Assembly (NCBI GenBank): GCA_009781515.1
Contig: WQXY01000004.1
Span: 28,618 to 92,617, forward strand
Reading direction: 5' to 3'
Length of the DNA stretch: 64,000 nucleotides
DNA from: Oscillospiraceae bacterium
GTDB lineage: Bacteria; Bacillota; Clostridia; Oscillospirales; Oscillospiraceae
The translations under genes were made by a program, and so were the position numbers. This document shows positions 16,060 to 62,286 of this stretch, piece after piece. Below the pieces are notes generated by a model that was not told the DNA's origin, ran no database searches, and worked only from the letters and a program-made list of their open reading frames with translations. The stretch's first letter is position 1; each line of letters starts with the position of its first letter.

Positions 16060-16839
16060 ATGAAAAAGATTACATCTGTAATGTTGATATTAGTGCTTAT
16101 ATTATTTCTGAGTGCATGTGGAATTAGCGGCAGCAACAACAATAGTTACTTTAATAGCGGCAGTGGCAATAACGGAAGTAACAATAATAATCTCGCTGGG
16201 AGCAGCGGCAATAACAACGATAGTAACAACAGCGGTAGCGTAAATGGCGATAACAATGATAACAGGAATGGCAGCATTGGTGACGATAGTAGCGGAAGCT
16301 CAAGCGGCAGTAAAATCACAGCGAAAGTTGGTGAGGCTGTAACACTTGATGATATCGAATGGTTGGTATTATCGGTACAAGACGACAAAGCGTTGATAAT
16401 CAGCTTAGAAGTCTTAGAGGAAAGACCATATCATACACCCGGAGGTTCAATAACGTGGGAACACAGCGATTTGCGAGCTTATCTTAATAACGATTTTTAT
16501 AACAGCCTCTCATCAGATTTTCAAAATCTTATTATTGAAACATTTGTAATTAATGATGATAATCCCCAGTATGCCCAGGATGGCGCCCTCGGCGGTAATG
16601 ACACAATGGATAATATTTTCTTGTTAAGCAACGATGAGGTCAGACTATACTTGCCTGACAGTACTGACAGAATGGCAGTAGACAAAAATGGCGAAGAAAG
16701 CGAGTGGTGGCTTCGCACTCCCGGCGGTAACTCTCAAAGCGGAGCACGTGTGCAAAAAAATGGTGTCATTGGTCTTCTTGGTTACGCCGTTAATTGTGAT
16801 TTAGGAATTCGCCCTGCTTTGTGGATAAACTTGTCGTAA
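16060..16839 (+). CDS. Lipoprotein with N/S/G-rich linker and DUF6273-like domain
   Basis: Lipobox LILFLSAC; WWLRTPGG...GIRPALWINLS C-terminal motif. Confidence 0.8.
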   Translation: MKKITSVMLILVLILFLSACGISGSNNNSYFNSGSGNNGSNNNNLAGSSGNNNDSNNSGSVNGDNNDNRNGSIGDDSSGSSSGSKITAKVGEAVTLDDIEWLVLSVQDDKALIISLEVLEERPYHTPGGSITWEHSDLRAYLNNDFYNSLSSDFQNLIIETFVINDDNPQYAQDGALGGNDTMDNIFLLSNDEVRLYLPDSTDRMAVDKNGEESEWWLRTPGGNSQSGARVQKNGVIGLLGYAVNCDLGIRPALWINLS

Positions 16840-17073
16840 ACTAAATACAAACAAGCGGACGGCACCATACTCGAGATTAAAGCGGTCAATCTCAGTTCGC
16901 CCCCTACTGATTGTATTCGTCTTCAATCCAGCGTGACGGGTTTTCATCAATATATTGCCATATACCCCTATACTCTATTTCATTGCGAATAATATGGTCA
17001 TGAAATGATTTTTGCCACAAAGAAAAGCCTGCATATTTTGTAACAAATGATTTTATATTGCGGATTACATGTT

Positions 17074-17100
17074 GTAGGGGCGACCGCCCTCGGTCGCCCG
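17074..17100 (+). repeat. REP-like hairpin unit, copy 1, inside the RAYT CDS
   Basis: gtaggggcgaccgccctcggtcgcccg; internal GGGCGACCG/CGGTCGCCC stem. Confidence 0.85.
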
Positions 17101-17224
17101 TTAAAATAACAATCATATGAATATGGTTAGGCATAATAGCATATTTATCTATTTTAATAGCATCATTGTTTGCTTTTTGTATTGTTTCATCTAAACATAC
17201 ACCGAGTGATGTTAAATTGATATG

Positions 17225-17251
17225 CGGGCGACCGAGGGCGGTCGCCCCTAC
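17225..17251 (-). repeat. REP-like hairpin unit, copy 2, exact reverse complement of copy 1
   Basis: cgggcgaccgagggcggtcgcccctac; 27/27 complementary to 17074-17100. Confidence 0.85.
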
Positions 17252-17444
17252 GATTTCACCAAATAATTTTTCATTCTTTTTAGTACATACGGTCACAAAG
17301 TAATAACCGACACTTGAATAGTCATGGTCTTTTAGCCTATTACTTTTTCGCACAGGTTGCTCTTGCATTTTTAATTTTTTCCTTTTCCTAAAATACAAAC
17401 AAATGCTATCATTATTTTTATATAATGTAAATCATGCTTTCGAC

Positions 17445-17463
17445 GGGCGGCAGATTGCCGCCC
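17445..17463. repeat. Palindromic repeat GGGCGGCA-GAT-TGCCGCCC upstream of the RAYT
   Basis: 8-bp perfect arms; same core recurs at 62260-62280. Confidence 0.75.
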
Positions 17464-17535
17464 CCGGCGGTCCTACAAATAAACTTGAAGAACTTATAAG
17501 ACTGTGTTATACTCGTAAAACATCGGAGTGATAAT

Positions 17536-62240: not shown

Positions 62241-62259
62241 TTGCACCTTCGCCATTATA

Positions 62260-62280
62260 GGGGCGGCAGGTTGCCGCCCC
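62260..62280. repeat. Palindromic repeat GGGGCGGCA-GGT-TGCCGCCCC
   Basis: 9-bp perfect arms; same core as 17445-17463. Confidence 0.75.
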
Positions 62281-62286
62281 TGCAAG

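Follow-up and report, generated by a model that had tools for sequence, protein, structure and literature searches.

A split, inverted pair of REP hairpins within RAYT coding sequences, mostly of Clostridia, as a candidate substrate carried by the transposase gene

It is an open question how REPs spread and what keeps them matched to their RAYTs (REP-associated tyrosine transposases) (PMC8266576). In the window (the whole stretch of 64,000 nt that was analyzed), positions 17074-17100 (GTAGGGGCGACCGCCCTCGGTCGCCCG) and 17225-17251 form a 27-nt inverted repeat with 100% identity and a gap of 124 nt between the arms. Both arms lie inside the minus-strand open reading frame 16904-17398 and both are translated: the coding strand reads GTA GGG GCG ACC GCC CTC GGT CGC CCG from 17251 to 17225 (VGATALGRP), while 17100 to 17074 is read within TGDRGRSPLQ. 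Each arm consists of a GTAG foot followed by a perfect 9-bp hairpin with a 4-nt loop, which is the canonical REP anatomy. The first in-gene REP (17225..17251, minus strand; loop 1, before the HUH motif) has its GTAG foot and hairpin in the coding direction, and the second (17074..17100, plus strand; loop 2, after HUH) is its exact inverted copy, with GTAG on the template strand. An earlier note on this DNA had described two exact inverted 27-bp units about 124 bp apart in a RAYT reading frame, both translated in frame and each a hairpin in itself, and the sequence comparison bears out this description in full. Its suggestion that these are REP units, and candidate substrates placed inside the RAYT gene, is also supported at the level of sequence.

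A repeat arising by chance is ruled out, since the 4 matches that a degenerate pattern of the unit gives in the window all fall on the two arm sites, compared with 0 in 100 shuffles, and since GTAG-type hairpins of similar form number 26 in the window genome vs 3 for a reversed-pattern control. Two degraded elements lie next to the gene. The first is a degenerate upstream REP-like palindrome of the GGGCGGCAATCTGCCGCCC type (17444..17476, minus strand; CTAC on the plus strand), which differs in type from the in-gene pair and is not scored as an intact REP. The second is the foot of a decayed REP, GTAGGGGGCGAAC (16895..16907, minus strand), whose TAG is the stop codon of the RAYT. Directly downstream, on the opposite strand, a lipoprotein-like reading frame (16060-16839) has a long Ser/Gly/Asn-rich low-complexity stretch after its signal sequence. 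Farther away, a REP-like hairpin of another type (TATAGGGGCGGCAGGTTGCCGCCCCTGC, 62255-62282) is followed by more short palindromes in a stretch that looks intergenic.

As for the gene itself, the RAYT (TnpA-REP) coding sequence spans 16904..17368 on the minus strand from a likely ATG start at 17368 (155 codons including the stop), and the open frame reaches a TTG at 17398. Its match to NCBIfam NF047646 (REP-associated tyrosine transposase; 60.5 bits, E 1.6e-16) is below the 80-bit cut-off and that to PF01797 (Y1_Tnp) is weak (18.5 bits vs a cut-off of 23 bits), such thresholds being properties of the models and not of the family; the gene is placed by its fold, motifs, and REP association. The AF2 model has a mean pLDDT of 88, and its best match among solved structures is 4er8, the complex of a TnpA-REP with a REP hairpin (E 1e-7). 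According to the alignment, the HUH motif MPNHIH (17117..17134, minus strand) sits between the two REPs, and the catalytic tyrosine motif YIDENP (16937..16954, minus strand; motif definition from PMC6006769) provides a Tyr in the Y-x-x-x-NP context, so both catalytic elements are present. A WQ....DH..R segment (16985..17017, minus strand) matches the GTAG-contacting residues of E. coli TnpA-REP, W94, Q95, E/D100, H101, and R104 (PMC6006769), and these contact residues are conserved among related RAYTs. With regard to the motifs of subclass 2.4 (NH[IFV]H, WQ, and YIxNNP), NHIH and WQ are present and YIDENP is off at one position. The family match, the 4er8 fold, and the motifs together uphold the earlier identification of the gene as a RAYT, and no second RAYT was found in the window genome, which is 90% complete. 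In the predicted structure, loop 1 (residues 41-48) forms the end of a beta hairpin and loop 2 (residues 90-96) connects the HUH strand to helix C. Model confidence in both REP-bearing loops is below that of the core (pLDDT about 71 and 76), as would be expected of surface loops that tolerate insertions.

The paired layout is shared by many related RAYTs. In a first set of 80 related loci, nearly all have two variable loops at the same places, with loop 2 coded by the reverse complement of loop 1 (e.g., VGTNCVRP and GRTQFVPT). The best complementary segment between the parts before and after HUH reaches a median score of 25 within a gene, compared with 9 between genes and a maximum of 11 after codon shuffling. 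The set was extended to 147 genes, mostly from Clostridia, by a family-wide search and the phylum of a Synergistales relative. A coding-orientation GTAG hairpin before HUH and an inverted one after it are found in 113/147, which is not an unbiased prevalence, the search profile having been built from members of the same clade. Plasmid searches gave few relatives. Most of the related RAYTs sampled from two other phyla retain a loop 1 that looks ancestral (FGEIVNGEM-like); their REPs are either confined to loop 2, as single units or a '><' pair, or absent, in agreement with what has been published on subclass 2.4. The split pair is probably a derived variant, concentrated in Clostridia with scattered cases in other groups. 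Tandem REP-coded expansions within one loop also occur, namely in L043 (four copies of VGTTAPGRPF), L042/L244 (repeated GDR/ADDRKLK in L042), and L196 (three units in loop 2).

Comparison of these genes indicates which property of the units is conserved. The REP-coded peptides differ from gene to gene, the loop 1 unit is read in two frames (GTA GGG and xGT AGG), and in one gene (L091) both REP orientations are flipped with the pair still inverted. The synonymous positions of the GTAG foot, however, are fixed, which means that the DNA and not the peptide is conserved: loop 1 Val is GTA in 68/71 genes, loop 1 Gly is GGG in 69/71, and loop 2 Pro is CCT in 60/62, compared with 25%, 23%, and 19%, respectively, elsewhere in the same genes, and while the p values for these sites are inflated by species relatedness, the effect is near-complete over dozens of REP types. 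Where the stems of the two arms differ, there are 14 compensated double changes, no uncompensated doubles, and 3 single-sided changes; each hairpin is thus kept even once the arms mismatch. The conserved object is therefore established to be DNA, a GTAG foot with its hairpin, giving one recognizable REP per strand. The earlier note had named conservation of the same residues as RAYT core in homologs as an observation that would count against it. Relatives show other REP types, another frame, another orientation, or no units, and this variation, together with the fixed synonymous sites of the foot, rules out a conserved protein core that is palindromic by chance.

The same sequences could also act in RNA, where the two arms would pair as a 27-bp mRNA stem that restricts translation of the RAYT or serves as a target of RNase III. 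The minimum-energy fold predicted for the coding sequence does have the arms fully paired (−67.1 kcal/mol for the duplex vs about −19 kcal/mol per hairpin), and complementarity is exact in about half of the genes. However, the stem is broken in the genes with two REP types (L096, L060, L089, L061, and L104), all of which keep their local hairpins, and the foot fixed at synonymous sites is unpaired and not needed by a stem. A long mRNA stem as the conserved object is physically plausible but weakened by these results, and autoregulation of this kind seems quite unlikely.

The REP type itself turns over, and it does so in both loops at once. At the clustering used, the related RAYT genes contain 55 REP types. 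Identity of the two units is 95.3% within a gene and about 70% between genes, with 58 genes having exact pairs, and identity between the arms stops at the REP boundaries. Among gene pairs with cores >60% identical, 66 differ in type at both loops and 6 at only one; for sister genes on the core tree the corresponding values are 19 and 1, with 17 pairs unchanged. Concerted change of the two in-gene units is thus established.

Quasi-palindrome correction is known to have hotspots at inverted repeats separated by less than 200 bp. The arms might be homogenized with no selection involved, by template switching or gene conversion from one near inverted repeat to the other, and both the distance between the arms and the end of their identity at the REP boundaries fit this view. 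It does not account, however, for the occupation of both loops in most genes, for the compensated hairpins in arms that differ, or for the missing flanking REPs when the pair is internal (see below). As a full explanation, mutational homogenization appears very improbable, but it may be the homogenizing step inside the explanation preferred here.

REPs flanking the gene (within about 300 bp) are found at 27/116 loci with an internal pair and at 22/30 without one (Fisher p = 6e-7; far-flank control 5/146), with L042 and L184, whose units were missed by the automatic boundaries, assigned to the pair class by hand. The loci without a pair divide into those with a single internal unit (11/17 with flanking REPs) and those with none (11/13). 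Some loci that lack internal units are bracketed by an inverted REP pair outside the gene (L107, with the exact type, and L118), and at L079, L171, L173, and L190, which have a single unit, the missing partner is outside the gene. In total, a REP is present in the gene or close by at 144/146 loci, including one with a weak unit (L092). The trade-off between the internal pair and flanking REPs is thus established.

Beyond the RAYT gene, the earlier note had proposed a genome-wide count of the 27-mer and regarded an absence of further copies as evidence against its reading; further copies were found. The 22-nt core of the unit is exact at two further sites of the window genome (C12 and C47), while the copy at C19 has one mismatch and that at C30 is one base shorter. 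With only about four copies of this REP type outside the RAYT gene, according to pattern searches and sampled stretches, from which all REP counts per genome derive, the window genome matches the RAYT pattern: one RAYT was found, and GTAG REPs of its type are dispersed. No dispersed unit consisting of a pair with spacer (REPIN) was found, the copies examined outside the RAYT in this genome being single REPs. The copy at C19 (L161, G000:C19:10700-11700) is a single unit near 433-458 of the minus-strand frame 3-788, read in the same frame as RAYT loop 1 and giving the same peptide, VGATALGRP. It sits between the two domains of its host gene, an MtaB-like tRNA methylthiotransferase named from a reading of its sequence. 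Within the family, the 27-mer type is present in only 4 of 151 genomes. One of them (G111) has 14 copies and just a RAYT fragment at a contig end, and G130 has three copies of a variant, so the expectation that every genome with a given REP type also encodes the matching RAYT is not borne out cleanly.

In several genomes the type within the gene is also the type that is dispersed. For L095, L048, L102, and L050, no dispersed type in the genome is more common than the one found in the gene. In the complete genome G116, 800 kb of which were sampled, there are 45 GTAG hairpins vs 1 in the reversed control; its RAYT L125 carries the commonest dispersed type, and three other RAYTs have three other types, each also present outside its gene. 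G019 and G079 likewise contain several RAYTs with different types, which means that the type belongs to the RAYT and not to the genome, and which rules out genome-wide homogenization to one REP type. In G019, eight RAYT matches with at least five in-gene types are spread over several contigs of a single 1.7-Mb genome, three of the eight being close copies of one type. As for G018, the commonest dispersed type (core GAGGCTTGCCTC) matches neither in-gene type of its RAYT L096, and no RAYT of its own was found for that dispersed type.

Taken at the level of the window, these results make it fairly probable (roughly 0.6) that both 27-mers are the cognate REP of the window RAYT, with enzyme and candidate substrate locked in one reading frame as its own REPtron. 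In this clade, the inverted pair of REPs usually found on either side of a RAYT gene would lie inside it, its two units placed in separate, tolerant surface loops before and after HUH and read through in frame. TnpA-REP cuts its cognate REP, but not the inverse, as a single strand, and in E. coli GTAG is needed (PMC8266576). With an inverted pair, each strand of the gene presents one such REP. The likely reason for the arrangement would be recognition and processing of these units by the RAYT when the DNA of its gene is single-stranded, and the conserved GTAG-contacting residues are consistent with binding or cutting of the in-gene units. Enzyme and substrate would then be physically linked, the units might serve as donor or template for dispersal, some mechanism would homogenize the arms, and on turnover of the REP type the in-gene and dispersed copies would change together. 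The broader proposal, that in a large RAYT clade the reading frame itself contains the cognate REP, split into an inverted pair, as a cis substrate or donor of dispersed REPs, so that specificity could be read from the gene and enzyme and substrate would switch type as a unit, is put forward more tentatively, as possible rather than probable. Several results count against the preferred explanation, namely the mismatch between in-gene and commonest dispersed type in G018, the low number of dispersed copies in the window genome, and the many related RAYTs outside the clade with REPs only in loop 2 or none. The single in-frame REP in the MtaB-like gene also counts against it, as mere tolerance of in-frame REPs is possible.

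Such tolerance might even suffice: the loops would be passive landing sites that accept in-frame REPs, the RAYT would act preferentially near its own gene, and the units would have no role. Surface position and low model confidence of both loops, the multiple tandem insertions in L043, L042, and L196, and the REP in the MtaB-like gene are all in line with this possibility, and Quentin et al. 2018 (PMC6006769) take loop insertions as peripheral. Neutral independent insertions, however, would not give fixed positions and a near-uniform orientation, and neither the 19:1 ratio of concerted type changes nor the reciprocal loss of flanking REPs would be expected from them. Passive tolerance is a real rival, although an unlikely one: a pattern that is paired, concerted, and reciprocal does not follow from it.

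If the genes of the clade each contain the substrate of their own enzyme, sequence alone would provide about 50 natural pairs of enzyme and substrate for tests in vitro, and enzyme and apparent target would be inherited as one unit. The loops are also an example of protein-coding sequence whose main constraint is a non-coding DNA hairpin, whichever of two frames and two orientations it is read in. In-frame REP insertions in tnpA-REP genes have already been reported for subclass 2.4, generally placed between HuH and Y (Quentin et al. 2018, PMC6006769). For the split pair around HUH, the concerted turnover, and the flanking reciprocity, in contrast, no account was found in the searchable literature (subscription journals and supplements lie outside it); within that literature, REPs inside RAYT genes are known and the split inverted pair, concerted turnover, and in-gene/flanking trade-off are new.

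In comparison with known systems, the window RAYT shares with subclass 2.4 (PMC6006769; group 4 of Bertels) the HUH and Y-x-x-x-NP core, the WQ motif, and in-frame GTAG REPs. Here, however, one unit precedes HUH and its exact inverse follows it, and concerted turnover and the flanking trade-off have not been described for that subclass. Rickettsia RPE and other intragenic REPs (Di Nocera et al. 2013, PMC3733652) are likewise palindromic repeats translated in frame, but they occur in many unrelated genes and are not usually arranged as an inverted pair conserved at set positions of a single family. In a REPIN or BIME, too, the GTAG feet of an inverted REP pair point outward (the pair here measures about 180 bp from end to end), but here the HUH core is encoded in the spacer and the other copies examined in the window genome are single. 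Finally, a REPtron likewise combines a RAYT with cognate, inverted GTAG REPs in cis, but in the genes described here the pair lies inside the coding sequence and intact flanking REPs are mostly absent.
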